A stretch of DNA of 52,857 bases from IMG/VR virus record IMGVR_UViG_3300020220_000072, positions 1 through 52,857 of that record. One strand, 5' to 3'. The notes below the pieces were generated by a model that made no database searches, was not told the origin of the DNA, and was given only the letters and a program-made list of their open reading frames with translations. The first letter of the stretch is position 1, and each line of letters opens with the position of its first letter. This DNA is from a virus. Below, one piece after another: positions 28,940 through 52,857 of this stretch. Position numbers and translations under genes: made by a program.

Positions 28940-29176
28940 ATGCAAATGAAGAGGAATGTCGTAAGGTGGATGGAAAAAGATTGCGGTTGTGCCCATCAAA
29001 AGTGTAATAATACACCAAAGTCACCTTTCAGTGAAATGAATAATCCTCGCATTCCAAAAAAACCAGGACAACCAGATAAGTCTGATAAACACTCTAATCT
29101 CTGTACAGATGAAGATCCGAAGGGAACAATTCACGGATTGGGATTTAAGGATGTTGCAACTGCAAAACAAAAATGA
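28940..29176 (+). CDS. short Cys-containing protein, partial copy of the 844-residue mosaic, 78 residues
   Basis: Residues 1-32 contain a Cys cluster (EKDCGCAHQKC). Residues about 33-76 are nearly identical to residues 42-85 of the 844-residue protein downstream (EMNNPRIPKKPGQPDKSDKH, then PKGTIHGLGFKDVATAK), with Tyr replaced by Cys once. The frame ends where the full domain would continue (the longer copy goes on with ESVSKIKNSGRSHAHKIQ), so this is a truncated domain. The start is uncertain: ATG 28940, 28946 and 28970 are all in frame, and a second overlapping frame starting TTG at 28927 (PEDHANEEECRKVDGKRLRL, stop at 29005-29007) also looks protein-like. It may be a functional short paralogue or the debris of a duplication. 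Confidence 0.55.
   Translation: MQMKRNVVRWMEKDCGCAHQKCNNTPKSPFSEMNNPRIPKKPGQPDKSDKHSNLCTDEDPKGTIHGLGFKDVATAKQK
29033..29166 (+). repeat. direct repeat, copy 1 (partner at 30547)
   Basis: About 134 bases are shared with 30547-30680. The first 63 bases (29033-29095 and 30547-30609) are identical base for base; the rest differ at about ten positions. The copies are 1514 bases apart in the same orientation and flank the fibre gene at 29183-30424. Confidence 0.9.
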
Positions 29177-29182
29177 TAAAAA

Positions 29183-30424
29183 ATGGACACAGAACTCAAA
29201 GAATTTTTCTCACTTATAGGTAAAGCCAAAAAAGAAAAAGAGGATGAGTTTAAGTCACTTGTTGGAGAAATTAATATTGATTCCCTTTTTACGCAAGTCA
29301 AAGAATCAGTAAAAGAGGAAAAAGAAAAGAAAAAGAAAAAAGAAAAAGAAATTCAAAAGCAAGTTAAAGCTTTAGAATCTTGGTTGTATGCTGAACCTCT
29401 AAAAATTAAAAAAGAAGAAATTATTAAAGAGATTTCAGTTAAACAAGTAGAGTTACTATCTGATCAAATTACTGAAGAAGAACAAATAATTGAAACAACA
29501 GAGCAAGAAATTTTGCAGGTAGAGGTAGATGTAAAAAAAGAAAGCACCGTAGATAATGCTCTTAAAATTTTGGAGCAAATAAAGTCAAAAGAAGAAGTGC
29601 AGGAAAATATAAAAGATCCAGAAATTGCGAGAATAAGAAAAGAACTTGAATATTTAAAAAATCTTATAAGCACTCAGGGAGGTGGTGGTGAGGTTCGACT
29701 TGAGTTTTTAGATGATATTGATAGAAGCACTGCAAAAACAAATGACTTTTATTTGAGATATAACTCATCTTTAGATAAGTGGGTTGGAGCTGCAGTAACA
29801 AGTAGTGGTGGAGGGGGAACACAAACTTTAGATCAAACACTTGGATATGGAAATACCTCAAATATTGGAATGTCTGTTGGTGTTGTCACGGCAACATCAT
29901 TTGTTGGACCTCTAACAGGTAATGCAACAGGTCTTTCAGGCACACCAAATATTAATGTTGGGTCAATTATTGCCTCCAGTGCGACAATCTCGGGCAATGT
30001 TTCTATAGGAGGAACTCTTATCTATGAAGATGTAACAAATGTAGACTCCATTGGAATTGTAACAGCTAGATCTGGTATTGAAATTGGAGCAGGTAGTGCT
30101 ATTTCGTTGGTTTCTTTGGAAGCTGCATCATCATCAACAACTACAACATCATCTACAAGTATTGATACTTTTGATATTACTAAATATCGCTCTGCTCAAT
30201 ATCAAATTCAAATAACAAGAGGATCACTTTATCATTTAACCACGTTAAATGTTTTACATGATGGAACAGATGTTTATATTAATGAATTTGGAACAATTAG
30301 AACTTCAGAGTCTTTAGCGTCTTTTGATGCTGATATTAATTCTGGGAATGTAAGAATTTTGGTTATTCCAACATCAAACACTTCAACAACTTTTAAAATG
30401 TCTAAAGTACTTACAAAAATCTAA
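29183..30424 (+). CDS. tail-fibre-like protein with coiled-coil N-terminus, 413 residues
   Basis: Residues 1-165 are highly charged and helical (ELKEFFSLIGKAKKEKEDEF, then a Lys/Glu tract), with strong coiled-coil character. A glycine hinge follows at about 167-171. Next comes LEFLDDIDRSTAKTNDFYL-like sequence and then fibre-shaft repeats: GVVTATSFVGPLTGNATGLS, SGNVSIGGTLIYEDVTNVDS and IGIVTARSGIEIG. These are hallmark repeats of cyanophage fibres. The last 90 residues (YRSAQYQIQITRG, then VLHDGTDVYINEFGTIRTS) form a beta domain like the tandem units of the 1489-residue protein. It lies between two direct repeats, and its stop overlaps the next ATG by one base (TAATG). Probably an attachment fibre or whisker; ligand unknown. 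Confidence 0.8.
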   Translation: MDTELKEFFSLIGKAKKEKEDEFKSLVGEINIDSLFTQVKESVKEEKEKKKKKEKEIQKQVKALESWLYAEPLKIKKEEIIKEISVKQVELLSDQITEEEQIIETTEQEILQVEVDVKKESTVDNALKILEQIKSKEEVQENIKDPEIARIRKELEYLKNLISTQGGGGEVRLEFLDDIDRSTAKTNDFYLRYNSSLDKWVGAAVTSSGGGGTQTLDQTLGYGNTSNIGMSVGVVTATSFVGPLTGNATGLSGTPNINVGSIIASSATISGNVSIGGTLIYEDVTNVDSIGIVTARSGIEIGAGSAISLVSLEAASSSTTTTSSTSIDTFDITKYRSAQYQIQITRGSLYHLTTLNVLHDGTDVYINEFGTIRTSESLASFDADINSGNVRILVIPTSNTSTTFKMSKVLTKI

Positions 30425-32958
30425 TGAAAACCTTTAAACAATTTCAAGAAGACTGGACGAATAAATATAAAAAGAGTATTGATTGCTCTAATCCGAAAGG
30501 ATTTTCTCAGAAAGCTCATTGTGCGGGAAAAAAGAAGTCTATGTCTGAAATGAATAATCCTCGCATTCCAAAAAAACCAGGACAACCAGATAAGTCTGAT
30601 AAACACTCTGATCTTTACACAGACGAAGATCCAAAAGGAACAATTCACGGATTGGGATTTAAGGATGTTGCTACTGCCAAAGAGAGTGTTTCTAAGATTA
30701 AAAATTCTGGTAGATCACATGCTCACAAAATTCAAGCAGCAATTGCCATGGAACAAAGAGCAAAGGTAATGGGTAAAAGTTCAGAGTCTGCAATTTTTAG
30801 GAGTTTTATTAATTCAATGAAAGAAAAAACAAAAAAAATAAACGAAGAATCTAAATCCAAAAAGTGTAAACCTGGATATTATTACTGTAATACCAACAAA
30901 GAGTGTAAACCTCTTCCAAGTGGATTTAATACTCCTGGACAAACAATAAAACCAACAGAGGTGGGCATCGGTGTGCCGGTAGAGGTCTCTTGCAATCATA
31001 CAAAAAAAGGGAAAATGTGTCCTAAGCATGGTATGAAAGATTGTACGCTCATAGGAGAAACATTAAATAGTGTAACAGAAGAAGGACTTCGTGATTGGTT
31101 TGGCAAATCCAAATCAAAAGAAGGAAAATCTGGGTGGGTTAATGTAGTTACTGGTGGAACTTGTGCAAGTGATGAACCTGGAGAAGGAACGCCGAAGTGC
31201 GTCTCTTCTGCAAAGAGAGCAAGTATGACAAAGGCAGAAAGACTATCTGCCGCAAGAAGAAAGAAGGCAGCAGATCCTGGACAACAGGCAAAAACTGGTG
31301 CTGCAAAACCAACTTATGTTTCAACCGATGTCAAAGAGGGTTGGAGTGATAAATATAAGAAGTCAATTAATTGTGATAATCCAAAAGGGTTTTCTCAAAG
31401 AGCACACTGCCAAGGAAGGAAAAAGAAAATGGATGAACAAAGTTTTCAGATTAATACTTCGGCACATAACTCTGCACAGAAGCAACAGAAGATTAGAAAT
31501 CTTGCTACTGGAACAAACAATCCCAATGAAAAATCTGCTGCTATGAGAAAACTCTCTGGTCCTTCTTTACCTCTGGTAGATGAATACATTAATGAGGTAA
31601 AAGATAAAAAAGGTAAAGGCAGTGGAACTAAAGATGCCTGTTATCATAAAGTCAAGTCTCGTTATGACGTTTGGCCAAGTGCTTATGCTTCTGGTGCCCT
31701 CGTAAAGTGTCGCAAAGTAGGTGCTGCTAACTGGGGAACAAAATCAGAGGAAACAGTGGTTGATGAAGCACAGAAGTGTTGGCCAGGTTATAAAAAGAAA
31801 GGAACCAAAAAGATGTTTGGTAAAACTTATAATAATTGCGTAAAAGAATCAGAAGAGGTGAGATACTGCCCATTATGTAAGAAAAATGAGTCAAAGACAG
31901 ATTGTAGTTTTGGACCTGCTCTGTGGGAAAAGTATTCTATTGCAAAAGTTCATCCTGCAAATGAAGAAATGAGCATGAATGAGGCACTTCGTTCCAGAGA
32001 AGAAAGAATGGCACGAATGGCAACACCTAAAACAAAAAAAGAGCAGGAGAAAAAAAGAGTATTAAGAAGCAAAGCAGAAGAAATTTTATCCGACATTCAG
32101 GCATTGAAAAAAGGTAAAACTAAATCTTCAACGAAATCACAAAAATTTACCACACCAGAAGCAGAAATTAGAAAATTAAAACCAGGACAAAGAAAAGATA
32201 CTCTTGCATTAAAGGCATCAAAAGCAATGCATGAAGAATCTAATCTTATGAGATATAATGAATATGGACAAACTTATGTGATTAGATTCACTTGGAGAGG
32301 TTTGATGTATAAAGTTCAAATTTTTATTCCATCTCTCAAAAGACCCAGTGCTCAAGAAATTAAAACACAGTTAAATAAAATTTATCCAGGTGCTCAATTA
32401 CTTCTTTTTCAACCAAAAGAAAATGATCCCGTAGATCCTACAATTGTTTTTGCAAAAGAAGATCGTGATTTAGATGAAGGTAAAGCAGATAAAAAACTTC
32501 CTGAGCATGAAAGATCTGCAGCAAGACTTAAGAGATACTCAAATCCAAGTGGTGCTTTAGCATTGGGTGGTGGTCAACAAAGAGCACGTAGAGCAGAGCA
32601 TGAGGCACGTAGAGGTAAATCAAAACGTTGGTGGGATGACGATGGAGATGGAATTGGTTATGAAAAAGGTGAGGTGTCTGGAAAATTCAAGGAAGATTTA
32701 GACATCAATGAAGTTGCAGCATGGCAACGTAGAGAAGGAAAAAATAGGAGCGGAGGCCTTAATGAGAAGGGCAGGAAGTCCTATGAAAGGGATAATCCAG
32801 GGTCAGATCTCAAAGCACCTTCAAAGAAGGTTGGAAACCCACGCAGAGCATCATTCTGTGCCAGAATGAGTGGTATGAAAAGAAAACTTACTTCTGCAAA
32901 AACTGCAAATGATCCCAATAGCAGAATTAATAAAAGTCTGAGAGCTTGGAATTGTTGA
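30424..32958 (+). CDS. 844-residue Cys-rich, Lys-rich mosaic protein, possible internal head protein
   Basis: The start MKTFKQFQEDW resembles the T4 internal-protein leader. Segments in order: 11-43 KYKKSIDCSNPKGFSQKAHC; 42-135 an SDLYTDEDPKGTIHGLGF domain with GRSHAHKIQAAIAMEQRAK; 148-210 Cys clusters (CKPGYYYC, CNHTKKGKMCPKHGMKDC); 235-300 WVNVVTGGTCASDEPGEGTP plus a basic tail; 306-338 a second copy of the first motif; 402-440 DACYHKVKSRYDVWPSAYAS; 482-497 CPLCKKNESKTDC; 610-685 a beta domain (YVIRFTWRGLMYKVQIF); 763-844 AAWQRREGKNRSGG to RASFCARMSGMKRKLTS and RAWNC. Several of these are DUF domains found singly in other marine T4-like phages; the last recalls DUF6321 (from memory). Sequences fitting [IL]-x-E occur after residues 141, 212, 391, 685 and 763, mostly between domains. 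It may be a DNA-binding head protein processed by gp21; this is inference. Confidence 0.7.
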   Translation: MKTFKQFQEDWTNKYKKSIDCSNPKGFSQKAHCAGKKKSMSEMNNPRIPKKPGQPDKSDKHSDLYTDEDPKGTIHGLGFKDVATAKESVSKIKNSGRSHAHKIQAAIAMEQRAKVMGKSSESAIFRSFINSMKEKTKKINEESKSKKCKPGYYYCNTNKECKPLPSGFNTPGQTIKPTEVGIGVPVEVSCNHTKKGKMCPKHGMKDCTLIGETLNSVTEEGLRDWFGKSKSKEGKSGWVNVVTGGTCASDEPGEGTPKCVSSAKRASMTKAERLSAARRKKAADPGQQAKTGAAKPTYVSTDVKEGWSDKYKKSINCDNPKGFSQRAHCQGRKKKMDEQSFQINTSAHNSAQKQQKIRNLATGTNNPNEKSAAMRKLSGPSLPLVDEYINEVKDKKGKGSGTKDACYHKVKSRYDVWPSAYASGALVKCRKVGAANWGTKSEETVVDEAQKCWPGYKKKGTKKMFGKTYNNCVKESEEVRYCPLCKKNESKTDCSFGPALWEKYSIAKVHPANEEMSMNEALRSREERMARMATPKTKKEQEKKRVLRSKAEEILSDIQALKKGKTKSSTKSQKFTTPEAEIRKLKPGQRKDTLALKASKAMHEESNLMRYNEYGQTYVIRFTWRGLMYKVQIFIPSLKRPSAQEIKTQLNKIYPGAQLLLFQPKENDPVDPTIVFAKEDRDLDEGKADKKLPEHERSAARLKRYSNPSGALALGGGQQRARRAEHEARRGKSKRWWDDDGDGIGYEKGEVSGKFKEDLDINEVAAWQRREGKNRSGGLNEKGRKSYERDNPGSDLKAPSKKVGNPRRASFCARMSGMKRKLTSAKTANDPNSRINKSLRAWNC
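30547..30680 (+). repeat. direct repeat, copy 2 (inside the mosaic gene)
   Basis: Partner of 29033-29166. Here the sequence is part of a complete domain that continues downstream, so this is probably the parent copy and the upstream one the truncated derivative. Confidence 0.9.
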
Positions 32959-40456: not shown

Positions 40457-41110
40457 ATTAAATTAATCACAGAAGAAATTGAAAATGTAGAAGTTATCGT
40501 TGAAAACCGTAACGGTAAAAGATCTTTGTACATTGAAGGTGTTTTTCTTCAAGGAAACATTTGCAACCGTAATGGTAGAATGTATCCAATAAACATCCTT
40601 TCTCGTGAGGTTGGTCGTTACAACGAAAACTTCATTCAAAAAGGACGTGCTTTAGGAGAACTCGGTCATCCAGATGGTCCAACCGTCAATCTTGACCGTG
40701 TTTCTCATAAGATTGTTTCTCTTCGTCAAGAAGGAAACAATTATATTGGTAAAGCAAAGATTCTCGAATCCACCCCAATGGGTAAAATTGCATCTTCACT
40801 TTTAAGTGAGGGTGTAAAACTTGGTGTTTCTTCTCGTGGTGTTGGTTCTCTCAGACAAAGCAATGAAGGTTATAGTATGGTAGGAGAAGATTTTACTCTT
40901 GCCACCGCTGCTGACATTGTTGCTGATCCTTCTGCTCCTGACGCTTTTGTTTCAGGAATTATGGAAGGCAAAGATTGGGTTTGGGATAATGGAGTTTTAC
41001 GTGAAAGAATGGCAGCAAAGACATATAAAAGAATAAATACATTGGTTGATCAAAAAAGGTTAGATGAACAGAAATTAAATCTGTTTGACGACTTTTTAGC
41101 AAATCTTTAA
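40457..41110 (+). CDS. gp21: prohead core protease gp21, probable ATT start
   Basis: From 40457 the product has 217 residues, close to T4 gp21 (212). It is the serine protease that matures the prohead by cutting gp23, gp22 and internal proteins after [IL]-x-E. Visible are NRNGRMYPINILSREV, the catalytic-His region ALGELGHPDGPTVNLDRVSH (His71), and the Ser region GVKLGVSSRGVGSL (Ser125 or 126). The frame is open back to 40430, but contains no ATG or GTG before the conserved core; the first TTG (40526) would remove about 23 residues. From memory, cyanophage gp21 starts MKLITEE, matching IKLITEE at ATT 40457, with GGAAAGAG upstream as ribosome binding site. An ATG at 40434 is in another frame and stops after ten codons. 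Confidence 0.88.
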   Translation: MKLITEEIENVEVIVENRNGKRSLYIEGVFLQGNICNRNGRMYPINILSREVGRYNENFIQKGRALGELGHPDGPTVNLDRVSHKIVSLRQEGNNYIGKAKILESTPMGKIASSLLSEGVKLGVSSRGVGSLRQSNEGYSMVGEDFTLATAADIVADPSAPDAFVSGIMEGKDWVWDNGVLRERMAAKTYKRINTLVDQKRLDEQKLNLFDDFLANL

Positions 41111-41156: not shown

Positions 41157-42212
41157 ATGTCCCGTGGTAAAAATTTACAAGAGATGGAAATAGGCACTGT
41201 TCAATCCAAGTCCGCAGTGAATGCATCGGCAAGTGCGCCAGATCAAATGCAAACTATGGCTGGTGTTAGTTATGAGGACTTAGGTGGTCCTGATCCATCA
41301 AACTACAGACCAGATGACGATTCAGCAAAGTTGAGAGACGCTGGTGGCGGTCTCAAAAAGGTTTCTCTTGTCGCTGCTCAACAAGTAGCAAAAGAAGAGT
41401 ATGAAGAGGTTGAAGAAGAGGATTTTGAAACCGAAGAAGAGTATGAGGAAGAAGTTTTTGAAGAAGAAGCACTTCCCGAAATCAACGACGATGTTGACAT
41501 CGAAGATGATGTCAATGCTCTTCTTGTAGGTGAAGAACTCTCTGAAGGTTTTAAAGATAAAGCAAAAACTATTTTTGAAGCTGCTCTCAAATCAAAAGTT
41601 ATTGAAGTGAGAGAAGCTTTTGAAGCACATTATGAAGCAAAACTTGTTGAGGAAGTAGAAGTCCTCAAAGAAGAATTAGTTGAGAGAGTAGATTCATATC
41701 TTGAGTATGTTGCAGATGAGTGGTTCGCTGAGAACACTCTTGCGATTGAAAAAGGTCTCAAGTCAGAACTCACAGAGTCATTCCTTGAGGGTCTCAAGGG
41801 ACTTTTTGAAGAAAATTATGTATCAATCCCTGAAGATAAGTATGATGTTGTTGAGAATATGGCAGATAAACTTGACGAAATGGAGACAAAACTCAACGAG
41901 CAGATTGAGAAAAACATTTTCCTAAACAAACGTCTCGCAGAGTCGGTTGCAGATGGAATCCTTTTTGATGTTTCTGAGGGTCTTGCGATTACTCAGAAAG
42001 AGAAGCTTGCTTCACTTGCCGAAAGTGTTGAGTTTGAGAGTGAAGAATCTTATAGAGAGAAGCTTGAAGTATTGAGAGAATCATACTTCCAACAAGCTGC
42101 TCCATACAGAAGTGAATCTGAAACACTTAACGAATCAGCACAAACAGGCATAGATTACTCTGATGCTATGAGCGCATACGTTAACGTGCTTTCTAAATCA
42201 GTTCAGAAGTGA
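41157..42212 (+). CDS. gp22: prohead scaffold core protein gp22
   Basis: The 351 residues compare with 269 for T4 gp22, the main scaffold of the prohead, later cut to small peptides by gp21. The N-terminal 80 residues are flexible (KNLQEMEIGTVQSKSAVNAS). A run of almost pure Glu/Asp/Tyr follows at about 78-125, and then 200 residues of acidic coiled coil (EVREAFEAHYEAKLVEEVEV and similar). Many [IL]-x-E tripeptides are present, as expected for a gp21 substrate. The C-terminus, GIDYSDAMSAYVNVLSKSVQ, is the conserved segment that contacts the capsid lattice in this family. AATCGGAGAG upstream gives a good ribosome binding site. Confidence 0.93.
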   Translation: MSRGKNLQEMEIGTVQSKSAVNASASAPDQMQTMAGVSYEDLGGPDPSNYRPDDDSAKLRDAGGGLKKVSLVAAQQVAKEEYEEVEEEDFETEEEYEEEVFEEEALPEINDDVDIEDDVNALLVGEELSEGFKDKAKTIFEAALKSKVIEVREAFEAHYEAKLVEEVEVLKEELVERVDSYLEYVADEWFAENTLAIEKGLKSELTESFLEGLKGLFEENYVSIPEDKYDVVENMADKLDEMETKLNEQIEKNIFLNKRLAESVADGILFDVSEGLAITQKEKLASLAESVEFESEESYREKLEVLRESYFQQAAPYRSESETLNESAQTGIDYSDAMSAYVNVLSKSVQK

Positions 42213-42262: not shown

Positions 42263-43663
42263 ATGTTCAACGCAGAACATCTGCAGGAAAAGTGGGCACC
42301 ACTCTTAGACCATAATGGTCTGGATCACATCAAAGATTCCCATCGTAGAGCCGTAACCGCTGTCCTGTTAGAGAACCAAGAAAGATTCCTCCGTGAGGAA
42401 AGATCATTCCTTTCGGAAGCTCCAACTGTCAATACAAATACTGGAGCAAATGCTGGTTTCAGTGCTAATGCAACTGCAACTGGTCCTGTAGCTGGTTTTG
42501 ATCCAGTTCTGATCTCTCTGATCAGACGTTCAATGCCTAATCTGGTTGCTTATGATCTGGCTGGTGTTCAACCAATGAACGCACCTACTGGTCTGATCTT
42601 TGCAATGCGTTCACGCTATAATAATCAGTCTGGAACTGAATCATTCTTCAACGAAGTTGATACTGCATTCTCTGGTATTGGTACTACCAACGGAGCAATG
42701 GGTTCAACCACTCCTGGAATGGTTAATGCTGCGGTTGGTCTCGGTACTACTGGTCAAGGTGGAAGCAATCCTGGACTTCTGAATCCTTCAACAACTGCTA
42801 CCCAAGCTGCTTACAGCGTTGGTGAAGGCATGAGAACGGATGATGCAGAGAATCTGGGTGCTCCTGGTGGTCAGGCATTCAACGAGATGGCATTCTCAAT
42901 CGAGAAAGTCACCGTTACTGCAAAGTCAAGAGCTCTGAAAGCTGAATACTCGTTGGAACTCGCACAAGACCTGAAAGCAATTCATGGTCTGAATGCTGAG
43001 GCAGAACTGGCGAACATTCTCTCGACTGAGATTTTGGCTGAGATCAACCGTGAAGTTATCAGAACCATCTATAAGGTTGCTGAAACTGGTGCTCAAGTCA
43101 ACACCCAAACCGCTGGTACTTTCAACCTTGACGTTGACTCCAACGGTCGTTGGTCGGTTGAGAAGTTCAAGGGTCTGCTCTTCCAAATTGAGCGTGATGC
43201 AAACGCAATTGCACAAAGAACTCGTAGAGGAAAGGGTAACATCATCCTGTGTTCTGCTGACGTTGCTTCAGCACTGACCATGGCTGGTGTTCTCGATTAC
43301 ACCCCTGCACTCAATGCTAACCTGAACGTTGATGATACTGGCAACACCTTTGCTGGTGTTATCAATGGTAAGTATAGAGTCTACATTGATCCTTATTCGG
43401 CAAACGTTGCTGCTACCCAGTACTACGTTATCGGTTATAAGGGCACCTCACCTTATGATGCAGGTCTATTCTATTGCCCATACGTTCCTCTCCAAATGGT
43501 TCGTGCCGTTGGTCAGGACACCTTCCAGCCCAAGATTGGCTTCAAGACCCGTTACGGAATGGTTGAGAATCCATTCTCGCAGGGTACTACACAAGGTTCG
43601 GGTACACTCACTGTTAATAGCAACCGCTACTACAGAAGAGTATCTGTCACCAACCTTATGTGA
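42263..43663 (+). CDS. gp23: major capsid protein gp23
   Basis: The 466 residues compare with 521 for T4 gp23. The N-terminal region (residues 1-52) reads like the T4 delta domain, with RRAVTAVLLENQERFLREER, and ends FLSE followed by A; cleavage by gp21 after Glu52 would fit the [IL]-x-E rule. The HK97-fold body includes PNLVAYDLAGVQPMNAPTGL, YSLELAQDLKAIHGL, ILCSADVASALTMAG, and VGQDTFQPKIGFKTRYGMV near the C-terminus. Base composition is clearly richer in G+C than in the neighbours, with CGT for Arg and CTG for Leu, as expected for the most highly expressed gene. AGAGGTAA upstream is a strong ribosome binding site, and a terminator follows. Confidence 0.98.
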   Translation: MFNAEHLQEKWAPLLDHNGLDHIKDSHRRAVTAVLLENQERFLREERSFLSEAPTVNTNTGANAGFSANATATGPVAGFDPVLISLIRRSMPNLVAYDLAGVQPMNAPTGLIFAMRSRYNNQSGTESFFNEVDTAFSGIGTTNGAMGSTTPGMVNAAVGLGTTGQGGSNPGLLNPSTTATQAAYSVGEGMRTDDAENLGAPGGQAFNEMAFSIEKVTVTAKSRALKAEYSLELAQDLKAIHGLNAEAELANILSTEILAEINREVIRTIYKVAETGAQVNTQTAGTFNLDVDSNGRWSVEKFKGLLFQIERDANAIAQRTRRGKGNIILCSADVASALTMAGVLDYTPALNANLNVDDTGNTFAGVINGKYRVYIDPYSANVAATQYYVIGYKGTSPYDAGLFYCPYVPLQMVRAVGQDTFQPKIGFKTRYGMVENPFSQGTTQGSGTLTVNSNRYYRRVSVTNLM

Positions 43664-44363: not shown

Positions 44364-44798
44364 ATGAATTTAGAAATGATACAAAGTATGTGGGAAAAAG
44401 ATTCTCACATAGATGTTGATGACATGCATCTTGAATCTTTAAATACACCAAAACTTCATGCAAAATATTATGACATTTTAAATAATTTGATTCTTTTAAG
44501 AGCAAAAGCAAAACAGCAAGAAAAAAACATTCGTCACGAAAGATATGAGTATTTTACTGGAAAAGCAGATCCTAATGTTTATGTGGAAAATCCATTCCCT
44601 AAAAAAATACGTGATAAAGAAACTCTTCAAAAATACTTAGATGCCGATGAAAAACTCTCAGAGGCATGTCTAAAATTAGAGTATTATGATGTAATGATTA
44701 ATTACGTAGAGAGTATTATAAAACAAATCTTTAACAGAACTTATCAAATTAAAAATAGCATTGAATGGCATAGATTTCAGGCAGGAATGACTACATGA
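44364..44798 (+). CDS. uvsY: recombination mediator UvsY
   Basis: The 144 residues compare with 137 for T4 UvsY, which loads the UvsX recombinase onto gp32-coated single-stranded DNA. The layout agrees: an N-terminal helix with MIQSMWEKDSHIDVDDMHLE, a central basic helix LRAKAKQQEKNIRHERYEYF followed by TGKADP (the LDxY-x-G-x-[AG]-D pattern), then LQKYLDADEKLSEACLKLEY and the C-terminal IKNSIEWHRFQAGM, which is strongly conserved. The stop overlaps the uvsW start by four bases (ATGA). UvsX is not in the window and must lie elsewhere. Confidence 0.93.
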   Translation: MNLEMIQSMWEKDSHIDVDDMHLESLNTPKLHAKYYDILNNLILLRAKAKQQEKNIRHERYEYFTGKADPNVYVENPFPKKIRDKETLQKYLDADEKLSEACLKLEYYDVMINYVESIIKQIFNRTYQIKNSIEWHRFQAGMTT

Positions 44799-46258
44799 CA
44801 AATTTGATTATCAAGAAGAAAAACGAAGTATTTTTAACAATTGAATCAGAACCTCATGTTTACTATGAACTTTCAGATTATTTTACATTTGATGTTCCTG
44901 GTGCAAAGTTTATGCCTCAATATAGAGGTAAATACTGGGATGGAAAAATACGTCTTTTTGATCTTCGATTAAATCAAATCTATGTTGGTTTATTGGATAA
45001 AGTTATTTCTTTTTGCAAAAACCACGACTATTCATACGAGTTTGAAAATAATAAATTTTATGGTCTTCCATTTGAAGTGAATGATAACATTTCGTTAGAA
45101 GGGATTAAAGATTATGTAAAATCTATTAGTACACATCTTCCAAGAGATTATCAAATTCAAGGTGTTTACGATGCATTAAAACATAATAGGAAACTTTTAA
45201 TTTCACCAACGGCATCTGGTAAATCGTTAATGATTTATTCTATTGTAAGATATTTTGTTTCTCAGCAAAAAAAGATTTTAATTGTGGTTCCAACCACATC
45301 ACTGGTGGAGCAAATGTATAAAGACTTTCAAGATTACGGATGGGATGCTGAAAATTATTGTCATAAAATTTATCAAGGAAAAGAAAAAAGTACGGAAAGT
45401 TTTGTAGTAATTACAACTTGGCAATCAATCTACAAACTAAGTAAATCATTTTTTGAAGATTTTGATGTAGTAATTGGAGACGAGGCTCATTTATTTAAAT
45501 CAAAGTCACTAATCACAATTATGTCTCATTTGCATAATACAAAGTATCGTTTTGGATTTACTGGTACATTGGATGGAACTCAAACTCATAAATGGGTATT
45601 AGAAGGATTATTTGGTCCATCTTATAAAATAATTAGAACTGATGAGTTAATTGAAAAGGGTTATCTTTCAAAATTTAACATCAAAGTTTTAACTCTTAAA
45701 CATCCTTTTAAAAGATTTGAATCTTATGAAGATGAAATCCAATATTTAATCAGTCATGAAAAAAGAAATAATTTTATTAAAAATTTAACTCTAAATCTTA
45801 AAGGAAACACTTTAGTTTTGTATAGCAGAGTCGAAAGTCATGGACAAATACTTTATGATTTAATAAATAAGGATAAGAATGAAAACAGAAAATGTTTTTT
45901 CATTCATGGTTCTGTAGATGTGAAAGAAAGAGAATTAGTTAGAGAAATTACTGAGAGAGAAACAGATGCAATCATTGTGGCTTCCTACGGTACTTTTTCC
46001 ACTGGCATTAATATTCGAAATCTTCATAATGTTATTTTTGCTTCACCGAGTAAATCAAGAATTCGAAATCTCCAATCAATCGGAAGAGTGCTTAGAAAAG
46101 GAGAAGGTAAAATAAAAGCAACACTTTATGATATTGCCGATGATGTATCAAAAAATTCTCAACGAAATTATACACTCAATCATTTAATTGAAAGAATTAA
46201 AATCTACAACGAAGAAAATTTTAACTATGAGATTATAACAATCAACTTAAAACAATGA
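44795..46258 (+). CDS. uvsW: superfamily 2 helicase UvsW
   Basis: The 487 residues compare with 503 for T4 UvsW, which unwinds R-loops and branch-migrates recombination and replication forks. The N-terminal 110 residues form the double-stranded-DNA-binding domain (AKFMPQYRGKYWDGKIRLFD). Motifs present are the Q-type LPRDYQIQG, Walker A SPTASGKS (137-144), DEAH (229-232), motif III GFTGTLDG, and motif VI QSIGRVLRKG near 427-436. All catalytic residues are intact. The ATG overlaps the uvsY stop and the stop overlaps the next ATG (both ATGA), so three genes form one translationally coupled unit. Confidence 0.96.
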   Translation: MTNLIIKKKNEVFLTIESEPHVYYELSDYFTFDVPGAKFMPQYRGKYWDGKIRLFDLRLNQIYVGLLDKVISFCKNHDYSYEFENNKFYGLPFEVNDNISLEGIKDYVKSISTHLPRDYQIQGVYDALKHNRKLLISPTASGKSLMIYSIVRYFVSQQKKILIVVPTTSLVEQMYKDFQDYGWDAENYCHKIYQGKEKSTESFVVITTWQSIYKLSKSFFEDFDVVIGDEAHLFKSKSLITIMSHLHNTKYRFGFTGTLDGTQTHKWVLEGLFGPSYKIIRTDELIEKGYLSKFNIKVLTLKHPFKRFESYEDEIQYLISHEKRNNFIKNLTLNLKGNTLVLYSRVESHGQILYDLINKDKNENRKCFFIHGSVDVKERELVREITERETDAIIVASYGTFSTGINIRNLHNVIFASPSKSRIRNLQSIGRVLRKGEGKIKATLYDIADDVSKNSQRNYTLNHLIERIKIYNEENFNYEIITINLKQ

Positions 46259-46650
46259 ACGAAGACTTTCTAGCAATTTTAAAATTAGTATCTGGTGAAG
46301 AAGTTCTTTCAATAGTAAATTACATTGATGATGAGAAACTTCTCATCTTAGATTGTCCTGTTTTAATGAACTCTAATGATCATGAACAAATGGGAATAAA
46401 TGTTGTTAGAGTAGAACCTTGGATAAAAACAGGAAATGAATCTTTATACATGATGTCAATGGATAAAATTATTACCATTAGTGAAGTTACAGACTCTAAA
46501 ATTATGAAAATTTATAATAAATTTATAAGTTGTTATTTTTACAAAAAAAATACTGATTACATTGACAACTCCAAACTAACAAAAGATCAAGGGTACATCA
46601 GTACAGTTGAAGAAGCAAGAGCTACTCTAGAGAAACTCTATAATAGTTAG
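46255..46650 (+). CDS. Sm-like-fold hypothetical protein, 131 residues
   Basis: Overlaps uvsW by four bases. The N-terminal 80 residues have the Sm/LSm-like strand order: LAILKLVSGEEVLSIVNY, LLILDCPVLM, a loop, then VVRVEPWIKTG and YMMSMDKIITISEV. Similar short proteins near uvsW are known to me from cyanomyoviruses, where they carry LSm-like annotation. The C-terminal 45 residues are helical and charged (EEARATLEKLYNS). A role in RNA binding or regulation is only a guess from the fold. It ends the uvsY-uvsW unit; a promoter region follows. Confidence 0.7.
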   Translation: MNEDFLAILKLVSGEEVLSIVNYIDDEKLLILDCPVLMNSNDHEQMGINVVRVEPWIKTGNESLYMMSMDKIITISEVTDSKIMKIYNKFISCYFYKKNTDYIDNSKLTKDQGYISTVEEARATLEKLYNS

Positions 46651-46711
46651 TATATATTATTCATCAACCTCCACAGAGTTATTATAACAAGAATTGATAC
46701 TCTTGTCAAGT

Positions 46712-46740
46712 TTGTCAAAATCATTATTTTATGTTATCAT
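46712..46740 (+). promoter_or_regulatory. sigma70-type promoter upstream of gp55
   Basis: A -35 box TTGTCA (46712-46717), exact 17-base spacer and -10 box TATCAT (46735-46740) lie in the 114-base gap before gp55. An additional TTGTCA lies at 46703-46708. Each box has one mismatch to the bacterial consensus. This is the type expected for early or middle transcription by host polymerase of the late sigma factor. Confidence 0.7.
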
Positions 46741-46749
46741 TTTGATAAC
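46733..46749 (+). promoter_or_regulatory. palindromic operator candidate over the gp55 -10 box
   Basis: GTTATCA-TTT-TGATAAC is a perfect seven-base inverted repeat with a three-base spacer. It covers the -10 box and the expected start point (about 46747). It could be a repressor or activator site, or a hairpin at the 5' end of the mRNA. Confidence 0.5.
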
Positions 46750-46764
46750 GAAATATAAGTAAAA

Positions 46765-47262
46765 ATGTCAAAAGTATTTTTGCCGATGCCAAAGAAGAAA
46801 AAACCAGAGCATTATGTCAATAACAGCGACTTTCTTCAGGCAATTATTGTCTATAAAAGAGAAGTTGCTCAAGCAGAACAGTTAGGTCTTCCAAAACCTT
46901 TACTTACTAATTACATTGGTGAGTGTTTTTATAAGATGGCAAATCACCTTGCCTATAAACCAAATTTTGTAAATTACATGTTTAAAGACGACATGATTGG
47001 TGATGGAATTGAAAATTGCGTTCAATGTGTCACAAATTTTAATCCAGAGAAATCTACAAATCCTTTTGCTTATTTTACTCAAGTTATTTACTATGCGTTT
47101 CTTCGTAGAATACAAAAGGAGAAGAAGCAATTAGAAATTAAATCTAAAATTATAGAAAGATCGGGATATGATGAGGTTTTTTCTGTAGATGACTTGACAT
47201 CTGGTATGGGTGGAGATTATAATACTATAAAGGATAATGTTCATAACAGACTAAACCGTTAA
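46765..47262 (+). CDS. gp55: late-transcription sigma factor gp55
   Basis: The 165 residues compare with 185 for T4 gp55, a minimal sigma-like factor that recognises only the -10-type TATAAATA element and needs the gp33 coactivator and gp45 clamp. The core shows the region-2-like helices: LPKPLLTNYIGECFYKMANH, DMIGDGIENCVQCVTNFNPE, then NPFAYFTQVIYYAFLRRIQK, where the A-Y-F-T/x-Q-x-x-x-x-A-F-x-R-R-I pattern is the conserved DNA-melting segment. The N-terminus is Lys-rich (MPKKKKPEHYVNN), as typical for cyanophage gp55. It shares one base with gp47 (TAATG). It has its own sigma70-type promoter, unlike the late genes it controls. Confidence 0.94.
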   Translation: MSKVFLPMPKKKKPEHYVNNSDFLQAIIVYKREVAQAEQLGLPKPLLTNYIGECFYKMANHLAYKPNFVNYMFKDDMIGDGIENCVQCVTNFNPEKSTNPFAYFTQVIYYAFLRRIQKEKKQLEIKSKIIERSGYDEVFSVDDLTSGMGGDYNTIKDNVHNRLNR

Positions 47263-48302
47263 TGAAAGTCGCAATTATTACCGACCAGCATTTTGGAGCA
47301 AGAAAAAATTCTAAAGTGTTTCATGATTATTTTTTACAGTTTTATAATGATGTCTTTTTCCCAACATTAGAAAAAGAAAATATTAATACAGTGATTGACA
47401 TGGGAGATACCTTTGATAGTCGCAAAGGTATTGATTTCTCGGCACTTTCGTGGGCAAAAAATAATTATTACGATAGACTCCAAAAAATGGGAGTTAAAGT
47501 TCATACAATTGTTGGCAATCATACAGCGTATTATAAAAATACAAACGAAGTAAATGCGGTAGATTTATTACTTCGGGAATATAAAAATGTTACTGTGTAT
47601 TCAGATCCTAAAGAAATTGAATTAGATAATCTTAAGGTTCTTTTAATACCGTGGATTAATGCGTCTAATGAACAAAAAACTTTTCGCAAAATTAAAAATA
47701 CCACTGCTTTGGTTGCGATGGGTCATTTGGAACTAAACGGATTCTATGCTCATCGGGGACATGTCATGGATTGTGGAATGGAAACACAAATCTATGATAA
47801 ATTTGAAAAAGTTTTTTCTGGTCATTATCACACACGATCAAGTAATGGTAAAATTTTTTATCTTGGAAATCCTTATGAAATTTATTGGAACGATTTAAAT
47901 GATAAAAGAGGATTTCATCTCTTTGACACAGAAACGTTAGATCATCTTCCAATTAATAATCCTCACAGAATGTTTTATAGTCTTTATTATGAAGATACTC
48001 CGCATCAAACATTTAATAGTTCACCTTTTGAAGGCAAAATTGTAAAAATAGTTGTTAGAAAAAAAACCGATTCAAAACAATTTGAAAAATTTGTTGATAA
48101 ACTTTTTGAATCTAACGTTCAAGATTTAAAAATTGTTGAAACAATGGAACTTCCATCGGATGATAAATTTGAAGCAGAAGAGTGTGAAGATACTCTTTCA
48201 ATTTTAAATCGTTATGTAAATGAGTCAGAAACTCAAATGGATAAATCTAAAATTGTAAATCTTCTTCAAACTATATACAAAGAGGCTTGTGAAATGGTAT
48301 AA
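47262..48302 (+). CDS. gp47: recombination endonuclease subunit gp47 (Mre11-like)
   Basis: The 346 residues compare with 339 for T4 gp47, the nuclease subunit that with gp46 resects DNA ends. All metallophosphoesterase motifs are present: Asp8 and His10 (ITDQHFGARKN), Gly48-Asp49 to Asp52 (MGDTFD), Gly85-Asn86-His87 (IVGNHTAYY), the H in MGHLELNGF, and GHYH at 187-190. The C-terminal 100 residues hold the gp46-contact region, ending KIVNLLQTIYKEACEMV. It overlaps both neighbours by one base (TAATG at each side). Confidence 0.96.
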   Translation: MKVAIITDQHFGARKNSKVFHDYFLQFYNDVFFPTLEKENINTVIDMGDTFDSRKGIDFSALSWAKNNYYDRLQKMGVKVHTIVGNHTAYYKNTNEVNAVDLLLREYKNVTVYSDPKEIELDNLKVLLIPWINASNEQKTFRKIKNTTALVAMGHLELNGFYAHRGHVMDCGMETQIYDKFEKVFSGHYHTRSSNGKIFYLGNPYEIYWNDLNDKRGFHLFDTETLDHLPINNPHRMFYSLYYEDTPHQTFNSSPFEGKIVKIVVRKKTDSKQFEKFVDKLFESNVQDLKIVETMELPSDDKFEAEECEDTLSILNRYVNESETQMDKSKIVNLLQTIYKEACEMV

Positions 48303-48571
48303 TGTTCATCTTAACAGTAAAAGGAATGGAAGATGATGGTGCCTATGCTTTAGAAGCACGAGATGGTGAAAAAATGTTACTTTTGTTTGAAGAGGAAGAT
48401 GATGCTGAAAGGTATGCATTGTTGCTCGAAGAAGAAGATGAAGAGTATCCAGAAATGAGAGTTATTGAAGTAGACGATAAAATTGCAATTAAAACTTGCG
48501 AGATGTATAATTATGACTATAGTGTAATTACCCCAGAAGACATAATAATTCCACCCAGAAAAAGAATGTGA
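48302..48571 (+). CDS. DUF3110 protein, cyanobacterial-type
   Basis: The 89 residues begin MFILTVKGMEDDGAYALEAR, continue with EEEDDAERYALLLEEEDEEY, and end ITPEDIIIPPRKRM: the full pattern of DUF3110, a small family found mainly in cyanobacteria and plastid lineages and in their phages. Very acidic in the middle. It sits between the gp47 and gp46 subunit genes, sharing one base with gp47 and ending ten bases before gp46. The function is unknown. Its position, conserved to my knowledge in cyanomyoviruses, suggests expression with the recombination nuclease. It is the best single clue for a cyanobacterial host. Confidence 0.88.
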   Translation: MFILTVKGMEDDGAYALEARDGEKMLLLFEEEDDAERYALLLEEEDEEYPEMRVIEVDDKIAIKTCEMYNYDYSVITPEDIIIPPRKRM

Positions 48572-48580
48572 GGTAAATTT

Positions 48581-50293
48581 GTGATTTTGTTTAAAAAAAT
48601 TCGTTGGAAAAATCTCCTAAGCACAGGAAACCAATGGACTGAAATTGATTTTCAAAAAAACAATAATACTTTGATCGTTGGTACAAATGGTGCTGGAAAA
48701 TCAACGGTTCTTGATGCTCTAACATTTTCACTTTTTGGAAAACCTTTTCGTAAAATTAATAAACCTCAATTAGTCAATACCACAAACGAAAGAGAATGTG
48801 TTGTTGAAATTGAATTTTCTATTAGTTCAACCGAATGGAAAGTAATACGTGGAATTAGGCCAGCAGTTTTTGAAGTTCATAGAAATGGAGTTTTATTGGA
48901 TCAATCTGCATCATCTATAGATCAACAAAAATGGTTTGAACAAACTGTTTTAAAAATGAATTATAGATCTTTCACTCAGATTGTAATTTTAGGATCTAGT
49001 ACTTTTGTACCTTTCATGCAACTTTCTGCTGCAAATCGTAGAGAAGTTATTGAAGATTTACTGGACATTAAAATTTTCTCTTCGATGAGTATTCTTATTA
49101 AAGATAAAATTCGTTCGTTGAAAGAAGAAATTAGAACTTTAGAGTTAAAAAAAGATTCTCTAAAGGATAAAATGAAAATGCAAAAAAACTTTATTGAGGA
49201 ACTTGAAAATCGTGGAAATGCCAACATAAATGCCAACCAAGATAAGATTGCCAAGTTAATGGACGAAGTTGGTGTTTATATGCTTGAAAATTCTAAAACC
49301 GAAGAAGATATTTTCCGATACACCAAAGATCAGGAAGAGGTTACTGGTGCCGCCGAAAAGTTAGGGAAACTTAACAATCTTAAGGGTAAAATCTCTCAGA
49401 AAGTATCCAGCACTACCAAAGAGCATAAGTTCTTTACGGAAAATACGGTATGTCCGACTTGCACTCAAACGATTGAAGAAGAGTTTAGGTTAAATAGAAT
49501 TGATGATGCTCAAAATAAAATAAAGGAACTTCAAAAAGGTTTTCAAGAACTTGAAAATACCATAAAGTTTGAACAAGAAAGAGAGCGTCAGTTCACAGTT
49601 CTATCTAAGGAGATTACTAAATTCAATCATGAGATTTCTCAAAACAACACTCGCATTTCTCTTAATCAAAGACAAATACGAGATCTTGAATCTGAAATTC
49701 AAACTCTTACCGAACAACTTGAAAACAGAAATTCTGAACATGAGAAATTAGAACAATTCAGAGAAAATCTCCAAAAAACATTTGAAGAACTTTCTGACAA
49801 AAAAGATGAAATCGTTTATTATGACTTTTCATACTCTTTACTTAAAGATGACGGTGTTAAGACCAAGATTATCAAAAAGTATCTACCATTGATCAATCAA
49901 CAAGTCAATCGTTATCTTCAAATGATGGACTTCTACATCAATTTTAAACTCGATGAAGAGTTTAATGAAACAGTCCAGTCTCCAATTCACGAAGACTTTT
50001 CTTATTCTTCTTTTAGTGAAGGTGAAAAACAAAGAATCGACTTGGCACTTCTTTTTACTTGGAGAGAAGTTGCTAGATATAAAAATTCAACAAACACAAA
50101 TCTTTTAATTCTTGATGAGGTATTTGATAGTTCTCTTGATGGATTTGGAACAGATGATTTTTTAAAAATCATTCGTTATGTAATCAAGGATGCTAACATT
50201 TTTGTGATTTCTCATAAAACTGGACTTGAGGACAGATTTGAAAGTGTCCTAAAGTTTTCTAAGGTAAAGGGTTTTAGTCGTATGGTGGTCTGA
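48581..50293 (+). CDS. gp46: recombination endonuclease subunit gp46 (Rad50-like)
   Basis: The 570 residues compare with 560 for T4 gp46, the SMC-like ATPase partner of gp47. Walker A GTNGAGKST is at 34-42. The Q-loop region is near SFTQIVILGSSTFVPFMQL. A long coiled coil runs from about 170 to 400 and is interrupted by the zinc hook CPTC (291-294). The ABC signature FSEGEKQRIDLALLF begins near 478, and Walker B ILDEVFDSSLDGF has Asp512-Glu513. The switch His is in VISHKTGLEDRF. The start is GTG at 48581 after GAGGTAAATTT, the same ribosome-binding leader as at the 1489-residue gene. Confidence 0.96.
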   Translation: MILFKKIRWKNLLSTGNQWTEIDFQKNNNTLIVGTNGAGKSTVLDALTFSLFGKPFRKINKPQLVNTTNERECVVEIEFSISSTEWKVIRGIRPAVFEVHRNGVLLDQSASSIDQQKWFEQTVLKMNYRSFTQIVILGSSTFVPFMQLSAANRREVIEDLLDIKIFSSMSILIKDKIRSLKEEIRTLELKKDSLKDKMKMQKNFIEELENRGNANINANQDKIAKLMDEVGVYMLENSKTEEDIFRYTKDQEEVTGAAEKLGKLNNLKGKISQKVSSTTKEHKFFTENTVCPTCTQTIEEEFRLNRIDDAQNKIKELQKGFQELENTIKFEQERERQFTVLSKEITKFNHEISQNNTRISLNQRQIRDLESEIQTLTEQLENRNSEHEKLEQFRENLQKTFEELSDKKDEIVYYDFSYSLLKDDGVKTKIIKKYLPLINQQVNRYLQMMDFYINFKLDEEFNETVQSPIHEDFSYSSFSEGEKQRIDLALLFTWREVARYKNSTNTNLLILDEVFDSSLDGFGTDDFLKIIRYVIKDANIFVISHKTGLEDRFESVLKFSKVKGFSRMVV

Positions 50294-50307
50294 ACCACTC
50301 AAGAACA

Positions 50308-50529
50308 ATGCAAGTCCCAAACTGGAAGCACAATTCTGGGAAACCTCAGAAACGAAAACTTAAACCGCAAGCACTGAGGCAAGCAAAAGCACGACTTGCC
50401 CAGTTCAAGAAGTGTCACATGGGTCGTCCAAAAGGCGACCTTTCGTTTTATAATGGGTTCATACGAAAGGAAATCAATGCCTGTCTCTCACGAAATCAAA
50501 TCTCAACTTGCCAAACTGCTTGCTACTGA
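50308..50529 (+). CDS. small basic hypothetical protein, 73 residues, overlapping the next gene
   Basis: ATG at 50308, 14 bases after gp46. The first 36 residues are strongly basic and look coding (MQVPNWKHNSGKPQKRKLKP, then a helix with Ala, Arg and Lys). The second half runs through an intrinsic terminator-like stem-loop (50422-50449) and into the start of the next gene, and it has five Cys in an irregular pattern, so it may be read-through of non-coding sequence. The gene may be real but with an unusual end; an earlier end cannot be placed because no stop exists before 50527. It could be a nucleic-acid-binding peptide. Confidence 0.4.
   Translation: MQVPNWKHNSGKPQKRKLKPQALRQAKARLAQFKKCHMGRPKGDLSFYNGFIRKEINACLSRNQISTCQTACY
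50422..50449 (+). terminator. intrinsic terminator candidate after gp46
   Basis: GGTCG-T-CC, loop AAAA, GGCGACC (50422-50440), then TTTCGTTTT. Seven pairs with one bulged T, and a T tract interrupted by CG. Together with the TATAAT just downstream it marks a transcript boundary before the protease gene. Confidence 0.65.
50449..50454 (+). promoter_or_regulatory. -10 box TATAAT before the protease/VWA gene
   Basis: A perfect TATAAT directly behind the terminator stem, 22 bases before the ATG at 50477. No good -35 box is seen at 16-18 bases upstream, because that position is occupied by the stem-loop. An activator-dependent (middle) or extended promoter is possible. Confidence 0.45.
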
Positions 50530-52663
50530 AGATCTGGTGGTTGAGCACAAGAAAGTTTCTACTGCTTGCTTTAATGTTCATACTCGTGTTCTTACGCTTC
50601 CTCTGTGGGAGAAGGCAAGTAATCTTGTGTATGACCTTCTCGTGGGTCATGAAGTGGGTCATGCTCTCTTCACTCCCGATGAGGATTGGTTGGAGACTGT
50701 AAAAGTTCCTCAGCAGTTTGTGAATGTGGTCGAAGACGCACGTATTGAGAAACTGATGAAACGCAAGTACATGGGTCTTGCCAAAACGTTTTTCAACGGT
50801 TATAAAGAACTGAATGAAGAGGACTTCTTTCAACTTGCGGATGAAAACATTTCAAAATTTAATCTTGCAGATCGTGCTAATCTTTACTTCAAGGTTGGAA
50901 ACTTTGTAACTCTTGATTTCAATCCAGAAGAGAAAGAAATCATTGATCTAATCGCTGCAACTGAAACCTTTGCAGATGTTCTGGTTGCTGCCGAAGAACT
51001 GTATAAGTATTGTAAGAAAGAAAAAGAACAGCAACAGAAAGTTTTTGACTTTGATTCTCATCAACAACAAGGTGACTCTAATTCTTCTGCGAATGAGATG
51101 TCGGAAGAACAACCAAATGATGAGCAAGAAGATCAATCTGATTCTTCACAACCAGAACAATCTGACGAAACTGGATCTTCTTCTGGAGATCAAACGCAAG
51201 ATAATTCTCAAGTTCCTGATAAGGATCCAGAGATTCGTACTGCTGAATCTCTTCAGGATAAAATTCGTGATCTTGTCGGTATGAACGATCAAGAGAATGT
51301 TTATGTGGAAATTCCTCAAGTAAATCTTGATACTGTGATTGCAAGTAATTCTGAAGTTCATGAAGAAATTGATAATTCTTTTAAGATGCAGCAAAAAAAT
51401 AATAATGAAATTGCAACTGAACGTAACATTTCTTCCTGCAATCTATTTGCGAAACCAGACTCGGAGTATCGCAAGTTTAAAGTTGCTGCACAGAAGGAAG
51501 TCAATTATCTGGTGAAGGAGTTTGAGTGTCGTAAGGCAGCAGATGCTTATTCCCGTGCTTCTACTGCTCGCACTGGAGTTCTTGATACCGCTCGTCTTCA
51601 TTCGTACAAGTATAATGAAGATCTCTTTAAGAAAGTTACTGTAATTCCTGATGGAAAGAATCATGGACTAGTTTTTATTCTGGACTGGTCTGGATCTATG
51701 CAAAATGTTCTTCTCGATACTTGCAAACAACTTTTTAATTTGATTTGGTTCTGCAAAAAAGTTGCGATTCCGTTTGAGGTTTATGCCTTTACAAATGAAT
51801 GGAGTCGTTGTCGGTATGATTATGATGAGCAACGTTATGTTCCTGCAGATTTTGATTGTCATTATCAAAAAAAGGAAGGTTTGCTTTGTGTAGAAGATCA
51901 ATTTTCACTCATGAATCTTTTTACCAGTAAGGTTTCTGGTAGAGAACTGGAGCATCAGATGATGAACATTTGGAGGCTTGCTATGTGTTTTATCAACACT
52001 TATACTTGCGAATACACTTACCCATCCCGTTTGTGTCTGTCTGGCACTCCTTTGAATGAAGCACTGATTTGTCTTCATCAGATTCTTCCCAAGTTTCAAC
52101 GTGAGAATAAACTTCAAAAGGTTCAATGTATTGTTTTGACTGATGGTGAAGCATCTTACATTCCTTATCATCAAGAAGTTAAACGTGCTTGGGAAAAAGA
52201 ATCTCATCTTGGAACTCGTCACGTAAATCCCAATAGTGCGTTTCTTCGTGATCGCAAACTTGGAACCACTTATAAGTTTGGTTATGGGTATCATGAATTT
52301 ACCGATATTCTTCTTCGTAACCTAAAAGATAAGTTTCCTACCACTAATTTTATTGGTATTCGTGTTCTTTCTGGTCGTGATGTAAATCGTTTTATTGGTC
52401 TTTATCATTCTCTTTCTGATAAGGACTACAAACAATACATTAAAATTCAAGAAGATTGGAAAAAACTGAAGAGTTTTACCATCACCAAATCTGGTTATCA
52501 TGCATACTTCGGTCTCTCTTCATCGGCACTTTCGCAGGATGCTGACTTTGAAGTTGCTGAATGTGCAACCAAGGCACAGATCAAATCTGCATTTGTTAAA
52601 TCACTTAAAGTCAAAAAGTTTAACAAAAAAGTTCTTGGTGAGTTCATTTCTCTTGTTGCCTAA
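50477..52663 (+). CDS. zinc-metalloprotease-like plus VWA domain protein (CobT-like, cyanophage 'peptidase')
   Basis: From ATG 50477 (AAAGGAAA before it) the product has 728 residues; an in-frame ATG 81 bases upstream lies in the terminator region and is rejected. The N-terminal part has H-E-V-G-H at 58-62 (LVGHEVGHALFTPDEDW), a zincin motif, and a downstream VNVVEDARIEKLMKRKY that could supply the third ligand. An acidic Gln/Ser-rich linker spans about 195-265. The C-terminal half has a MIDAS-type VWA domain: Asp403-Trp-Ser405-Gly-Ser407 (LDWSGSM), then SGTPLNEAL and LTDGEAS. The VWA arrangement resembles CobT, the partner of the AAA protein CobS, which cyanomyoviruses also carry. The substrate is unknown; an AAA-VWA unfolding or proteolysis machine in infection is inferred. 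Confidence 0.85.
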   Translation: MPVSHEIKSQLAKLLATEDLVVEHKKVSTACFNVHTRVLTLPLWEKASNLVYDLLVGHEVGHALFTPDEDWLETVKVPQQFVNVVEDARIEKLMKRKYMGLAKTFFNGYKELNEEDFFQLADENISKFNLADRANLYFKVGNFVTLDFNPEEKEIIDLIAATETFADVLVAAEELYKYCKKEKEQQQKVFDFDSHQQQGDSNSSANEMSEEQPNDEQEDQSDSSQPEQSDETGSSSGDQTQDNSQVPDKDPEIRTAESLQDKIRDLVGMNDQENVYVEIPQVNLDTVIASNSEVHEEIDNSFKMQQKNNNEIATERNISSCNLFAKPDSEYRKFKVAAQKEVNYLVKEFECRKAADAYSRASTARTGVLDTARLHSYKYNEDLFKKVTVIPDGKNHGLVFILDWSGSMQNVLLDTCKQLFNLIWFCKKVAIPFEVYAFTNEWSRCRYDYDEQRYVPADFDCHYQKKEGLLCVEDQFSLMNLFTSKVSGRELEHQMMNIWRLAMCFINTYTCEYTYPSRLCLSGTPLNEALICLHQILPKFQRENKLQKVQCIVLTDGEASYIPYHQEVKRAWEKESHLGTRHVNPNSAFLRDRKLGTTYKFGYGYHEFTDILLRNLKDKFPTTNFIGIRVLSGRDVNRFIGLYHSLSDKDYKQYIKIQEDWKKLKSFTITKSGYHAYFGLSSSALSQDADFEVAECATKAQIKSAFVKSLKVKKFNKKVLGEFISLVA

Positions 52664-52666
52664 ATA
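52659..52666 (+). promoter_or_regulatory. weak late promoter-like site CCTAAATA overlapping the stop codon
   Basis: Two mismatches from TATAAATA. The TAA stop of the protease/VWA gene (52661-52663) is part of it, and the next ATG is 19 bases further on. The same CTAAATA heptamer overlaps the stops of gp14 and gp19. Confidence 0.35.
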
Positions 52667-52685: not shown

Positions 52686-52857
52686 ATGAAGACCTTTAAG
52701 GAATTTATCTCTGAAGCAAGAGACTTAAATGAAACCTCACTTACTCGTGTAATGAGTAAATCAAAAAAGGGTGGCATGGCAATTATGTCAGCTCAACGTG
52801 GTGACAAATCCAAAGCAGAAAACAAAGCACGTTCACGGCAACTTGAACGTGATATTA
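52686..52857 (+). CDS. 5' part of a gene with a capsid-targeting-like leader, truncated by the window edge
   Basis: ATG at 52686, open to the end of the window (57 codons visible). The start MKTFKEFISEARD closely resembles the leaders of T4 internal head proteins, which I recall as MKTYQEFIAEA, and has the gp21 rule [IL]-x-E followed by Ala (I-S-E, A) at residue 10. The following residues are strongly basic (SKSKKGG, RGDKSKAENKARSRQLERD), like DNA-packaged internal proteins. It may be an internal protein ejected with the DNA. The rest of the gene is outside the window. Confidence 0.6.
   Translation, partial: MKTFKEFISEARDLNETSLTRVMSKSKKGGMAIMSAQRGDKSKAENKARSRQLERDI

Follow-up and report, generated by a model that had tools for sequence, protein, structure and literature searches.

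The last gene of the virus record IMGVR_UViG_3300020220_000072, a T4-like phage fragment of 52,857 bases that was analysed over its whole length (the window), very probably encodes an S-adenosylmethionine (SAM) lyase that carries a capsid-targeting sequence of the T4 type, is packaged into the virion and is probably injected into the host. The fragment most probably derives from a cyanophage, since its capsid protein and that of Prochlorococcus phage P-SSM2 share 82.6% identity. The gene starts at position 52686 and remains stop-free for 57 codons up to the end of the window (MKTFKEFISEARDLNETSLTRVMSKSKKGGMAIMSAQRGDKSKAENKARSRQLERDI); its N-terminal reading is MKTFKEFISEARDLNETSLTR..., opening with MKTFKEFISE|A (the bar denotes a predicted cleavage), and the leader-bearing stretch is MKTFKEFISEARDLNE. 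The initial annotation of this DNA had given the leader of T4 internal proteins as MKTYQEFIAE and had noted that the window gene resembles it nearly residue by residue. Both statements are correct, as the N-termini of T4 ipII and ipIII are both ATGAAAACATATCAAGAATTTATTGCCGAA, i.e. MKTYQEFIAE. The identity of the protein as a lyase was not visible to that annotation, because the window holds only 57 codons. The gene comprises the following features:

52686..52857, plus strand: first 57 of the 170 codons of the gene for leader and SAM lyase, truncated by the window end; complete copies are found in contigs L006-L009.
52686..52715, plus strand: capsid-targeting-like leader MKTFKEFISE (residues 1-10), of which residues 2, 3, 4, 7 and 10 are kept by selection in relatives.
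52782..52857, plus strand: beginning of the SAM lyase domain, from residue 33; the Pfam match spans residues 33-167.

The complete gene, closed from contigs L006-L009 (2,470-2,472 of 2,472 nucleotides of shared sequence match the window), encodes 170 amino acids. This full-length copy matches PF23780 (S-adenosylmethionine lyase) with E=1.8e-15 and 57.5 bits against a curated cutoff of 28, while the comparison proteins of S-H34, S-CREM2 and T3 (SAMase) score 81.5, 70.1 and 143 bits, respectively. Residues known to be important are Gly56, Tyr58, Glu69, Gln104 and Glu105 in Svi3-3 and E68 in T3 (PMC7877911). In our alignment G70, Y72, E86, Q114 and D115 correspond to these active-site residues of Svi3-3 and T3 SAMase, including T3 E68, and are invariant in 13 relatives; they lie beyond the window end and were read from the near-identical contigs. 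Because a profile comparison with T3 SAMase alone is weak (E=0.007), membership in the family rests on the Pfam score together with the active-site residues. Searches of PDB sequences with the protein and with its alignment gave no match. The protein resembles T3 SAMase (gene 0.3) and Svi3-3 in its PF23780 domain and in the retention of the G, Y, E, Q and acidic active-site residues, but differs from both in bearing a head-packaging leader.

Within the SAM lyase family this leader opens 46 of 47 distinct complete N-terminal regions (42 as MK..., 4 as MRT[YF]QEF). The sole leader-less N-terminus, in L270, belongs to a gene fused behind another module, where only an internal QFMLEC is left. The leader is separated from the lyase block by 0 to about 280 residues, made up of varied, interchangeable modules. 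Among 44 distinct leaders, which were detected by a rule that included positions 4 and 7 and left out 8 and 10 (one N-terminus failed it), F7 and [FY]4 are present in all 44 and E10 in 43; position 8 is mostly I, V or M (I8 in the window gene) and position 9 is free. Codons 2, 3, 4, 7 and 10 show synonymous differences in 41% of comparisons and non-synonymous ones in 2%, and the pattern is reversed at codons 5, 6, 8 and 9 (10% and 52%). In T4, genetics has assigned targeting mainly to residues 4 and 7 and processing to residues 8 and 10, and the first ten residues of IPIII are sufficient (PMC9026906). Judged from these sequence comparisons, selection on leaders of the window type is in agreement with this map of targeting (4 and 7) and processing (10).

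The leader also predicts which proteins are found in virions. Mass spectrometry detected the products of 52 of the 219 open reading frames (ORFs) of cyanophage S-CREM2 in its virions, among them ORF6 with 19 unique peptides (PMC10665884), which has the same leader, belongs to the same SAM lyase family and is about 55% identical. When all 219 ORFs are ranked by likeness to the window leader, the top five (136, 154, 6, 14 and 13) are all virion proteins (p=6.5e-4, or p=0.0027 if ORF6, a member of the query family, is left out), and shuffling the N-terminal columns of a related phage yields an expectation of 0.044 leader-like starts per 219 genes versus 5 observed. These top five include the kinase ORF14, the cytidylyltransferase ORF154 and the SAM lyase ORF6, i.e. 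three of the six S-CREM2 virion proteins classed as non-structural by the authors; a fourth, ORF12, possesses LRFASFMAEAA, a comparable stretch that lies about 17 residues from the N-terminus and lacks its own Met. In S-SCSM1 the NMNAT ORF91, with the leader MKSFLQFLKE|A, is a virion protein, so that across both phages six of seven leader proteins have been seen in virions. A cytidylyltransferase is present in the virions of S-SM1 as well (PMC3037559). The proposal that the product of the last gene is probably packaged is therefore supported by both the S-CREM2 homologue and the predictive power of the leader.

The window genome also encodes the head machinery on which such a leader would act:

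40526..41110, plus strand: prohead core protease (gp21 type, peptidase S77; PF03420, E=8e-35).
41157..42212, plus strand: prohead scaffold protein (gp22 type; PF25623 T4_CASP, E=5.5e-75).
42263..43663, plus strand: major capsid protein gp23 (PF07068, E=3.6e-151).
42407-42421, plus strand: candidate gp23 maturation site FLSE|APTVN (codons 49-53), aligned with T4 gp23 FLTE|AEIGG.
52713..52718, plus strand: predicted prohead-protease site E10|A11 of the leader, fitting the I/L-x-E|A rule.
52725..52736, plus strand: possible second cleavage site L-N-E16|T17 before a conserved [TS]SL[TNS]R block; E16 is invariant in 13 relatives.
52660..52666, plus strand: late-promoter-like sequence motif CTAAATA, 26 nucleotides upstream of the start.

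The true start of the protease gene probably lies slightly upstream of 40526, since the profile match begins at position 44, and the gp22-type scaffold is the expected docking partner of the leader. In T4 a propeptide of 65 residues is removed from gp23 (PMC9026906). As FLSE|A is aligned at the gp23 maturation site of the same genome, FISE|A of the leader belongs to the type of site expected in the capsid protein; the window gene fits the gp21 cleavage rule, as had been suggested, though position 11 varies among its relatives. Many structural genes in the window, but none of its replication and recombination genes (44364-50396), have a CTAAATA-type motif upstream. The T4 late promoter is TATAAATA, and by its likeness to this sequence CTAAATA may be read as a late promoter.

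Leader-like starts are not restricted to SAM lyases. The strict pattern M-K-[TS]-[FY]-x-[EQ]-F-[IL]-x-E, proposed for scanning by the initial annotation, gave way to a looser one, because S-CREM2 virion proteins that have Asp, Arg or Asn as residue 3 and Ser or Ala as residue 6 escape it. The leader pattern matches 31 times in 16 related records, compared with no match for a reversed control; 30 of the 31 are readable, all of them at gene starts, and they fall into four families (SAM lyase, NMNAT/cytidylyltransferase, a 106-residue and a 56-residue family). Among viral contigs at least 120 stretches match, against 2 for the reversed pattern. Considering the matches listed there, 126 of 128 distinct proteins start no more than 40 codons after an upstream stop, 125 leader proteins form 74 clusters by their mature parts, and the domains behind the leader include nucleotidyltransferase, DUF6267, DUF5661, DUF6321, GNAT, DPBB, glucosaminidase, HNH and an ADP-ribosyltransferase (ART-PolyVal, E=9.7e-24). 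The CTAAATA-type motif precedes 63 of 126 leader genes and 206 of 983 other ORFs (p=2e-11). Leader genes sometimes stand in tandem. The idea that this type of leader can be used to find further effectors is strongly borne out by the scans of related records and viral contigs and by the domain matches.

Taken in sequence, the proposed course of events would be as follows. The SAM lyase gene would be transcribed late, together with the structural genes, and the first ten residues of its product would dock it into the prohead core; the prohead protease of the same genome would probably release the enzyme inside the head by cutting after Glu10 and possibly after Glu16 as well. Ejected with the DNA, the lyase would destroy SAM in the host cytoplasm, and restriction systems that depend on SAM, or other defences based on methylation, would be disabled before expression of any phage gene begins.

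Several points weigh against parts of this proposal. The support from mass spectrometry comes from a homologue and not from the window phage itself, and one of the two leader genes of S-SCSM1, ORF30 (106 residues), was undetected in virions. Injection of the lyase is plausible by analogy with T4, where the nearest functional parallel to a packaged lyase would be IPI, an injected restriction inhibitor (PMC3012670, PMC9026906). That the lyase is packaged is more certain than what it is packaged for, because it has been disputed whether T3 SAMase protects against restriction (PMC8406200). Instead, the lyase could serve another purpose after entry, or a toxic enzyme could be parked in the head away from the producing cell. 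The toxicity of T3 SAMase at high expression in E. coli (PMC7877911), the late-type motif upstream of the lyase gene, a phage DNA adenine methylase gene near it in S-CREM2 and S-H34 and the disputed role of the T3 enzyme all speak for such a function; T4 IPI, described with a similar leader, is nevertheless an injected anti-restriction protein (PMC3012670, PMC9026906), and T3 SAMase itself was first described as a counter-defence (PMC7877911). We regard this alternative as unlikely, though a serious candidate.

Further objections concern cleavage, which is predicted from the sequence of the site after Glu10 and not from an N-terminal or semi-tryptic peptide of any cyanophage. Position 11 is Ala in the window gene and Cys in 27 of 44 distinct relatives, so that the family as a whole does not keep the precise E|A step, and in some leader proteins, including S-CREM2 ORFs 6, 13, 14 and 136, this residue is large or charged (Phe, Gln, Glu or Asp in S-CREM2 virion proteins). 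The leader might therefore bring the protein into the head and stay attached, the residue after Glu10 not being reliably small, and T4 does tolerate unprocessed targeting with Asp at residue 10 (PMC9026906). Against this, Ala and Ser follow Glu10 in 37% and 18% of the matches listed, whereas at other positions of these proteins they make up 7% and 7.6%, and Ala11 of the window gene matches the type of the capsid site; we regard targeting without processing as unlikely. That the leader is a mere recombination scar, a conserved 5' end through which modules are swapped and which has no function at the protein level, would account for the shuffling of modules behind it and for the tandem leader genes, but is very improbable given the protein-level selection with synonymous change at key codons, the prediction of virion membership and the coincidence of the conserved positions with those mapped by T4 genetics (PMC9026906).

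A second candidate effector in the window, singled out by the initial annotation, is more ambiguous:

30424..32958, plus strand: 844-residue mosaic protein with the degenerate leader MKTFKQFQED, which keeps Phe4 and Phe7 and has Gln8 and Asp10.

In T4, Asp10 permits targeting and blocks processing (PMC9026906). The body of the mosaic matches the S-SCSM1 virion protein ORF29 with 49-83% identity over two long stretches, and ORF29 itself is without a leader. The mosaic is likely to be a virion protein with a degenerate leader, and the suggestion of a leader-type effector finds support only in part. A 78-residue gene (28940-29176) shares a 51-residue stretch, 88% identical, with the mosaic, an internal duplication.

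Regarding gene neighbourhood, a peptidase-family gene lies upstream of the last gene, and in L007 a gene for an ATPase resembling CobS-type ATPases lies downstream; P-TIM68 has the same order as the window and L007, with additional genes interspersed. In S-H34 (L003:4949-5842) and S-CREM2 (L004:4947-5837) the SAM lyase gene has, two genes upstream of it, a gene for a phage DNA adenine methylase; this is an odd combination of an enzyme that uses SAM with one that destroys it.

Several observations concern the modules of leader proteins. A module GD[WY]WHPDP.. is placed between leader and lyase in L074, L083 and L316 and at the C-terminus behind NVSE|A in L059, which suggests that packaged modules are shuffled, perhaps with protease sites at their joints. 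A module of about 35 residues, LGLxxDGHGxWxDxxGxxVAKTxxGxLxF, follows the leader in NMNAT-like proteins (e.g. L128 from 4233, L136 from 4604) and recurs in the S-CREM2 virion proteins ORF12 (L085:7704-10313) and ORF14 (L085:10579-12846), and may serve as a second module for packaging or cargo. ORF12 (OR473000:7704-10313) has been published as a virion CRISPR-Cas9 nuclease, a doubtful name, and has no Pfam match at E 0.01. In L138, L192, L419, L371 and L367 leader genes encode ADP-ribosyltransferase-like proteins (YHGT motifs; ART-PolyVal/PARP matches of varying strength), comparable to T4 Alt. In T4 itself the leader pattern matches only ipII, ipIII and gp61.1, a hypothetical protein of 54 residues (AF158101:18966-19130, L247) that starts with MKTFKEFIKE and, by this resemblance, may be an unrecognised internal head protein.

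Compared with known systems, the window gene shares with T4 IPII and IPIII (and IPI) a near-identical ten-residue N-terminus with the same conserved positions, in a genome that likewise contains a gp21-type protease and a gp22-type scaffold, but it has a SAM lyase as its body, its relatives vary in the residue that follows Glu10 and its cleavage is predicted. T4 Alt and the ADP-ribosyltransferases of polyvalent proteins are packaged, injected effectors too, and one leader gene has an ART-PolyVal domain; Alt is, however, a different enzyme and loses another propeptide, of seven residues (PMC9026906). A further parallel is S-CREM2 ORF6, with the same leader and lyase family in virions, and the leader is shared by the kinase and the NMNAT/cytidylyltransferase. 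That T4-like phages may use the T4 leader to package a variety of proteins has already been suggested in a review (PMC9026906), and the S-CREM2 authors have already proposed that the virion SAM hydrolase shields phage DNA on entry. In the open-licence literature we found no paper that prints these leader strings or ties the T4 leader to cyanophage virion enzymes; this link, and the reach of the leader across environmental phages, are new.

Cyanophage enzymes have been published as virion-associated without an explanation of how they enter the head; the ten-residue tag predicts them and ties them to the T4 signal. As it fronts dozens of unrelated proteins of aquatic phages, it can be used to find what phages probably carry into cells and to compile probable injected effectors from metagenomic phage sequence. 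On balance we lean towards the view that one portable tag loads a large modular arsenal into the heads of aquatic T4-like phages for injection, an arsenal that would comprise, besides many unknown families, SAM lyase, NMNAT, kinases, ADP-ribosyltransferases, acetyltransferases and nucleases. In the case of the SAM lyase, an anti-restriction enzyme may be delivered ready-made with the DNA, whereas T3 must first express its own. If the broader view is true, the set of effectors that uncultivated phages inject could be predicted from the tag alone, in much the same way as a secretome is defined by its secretion signal.
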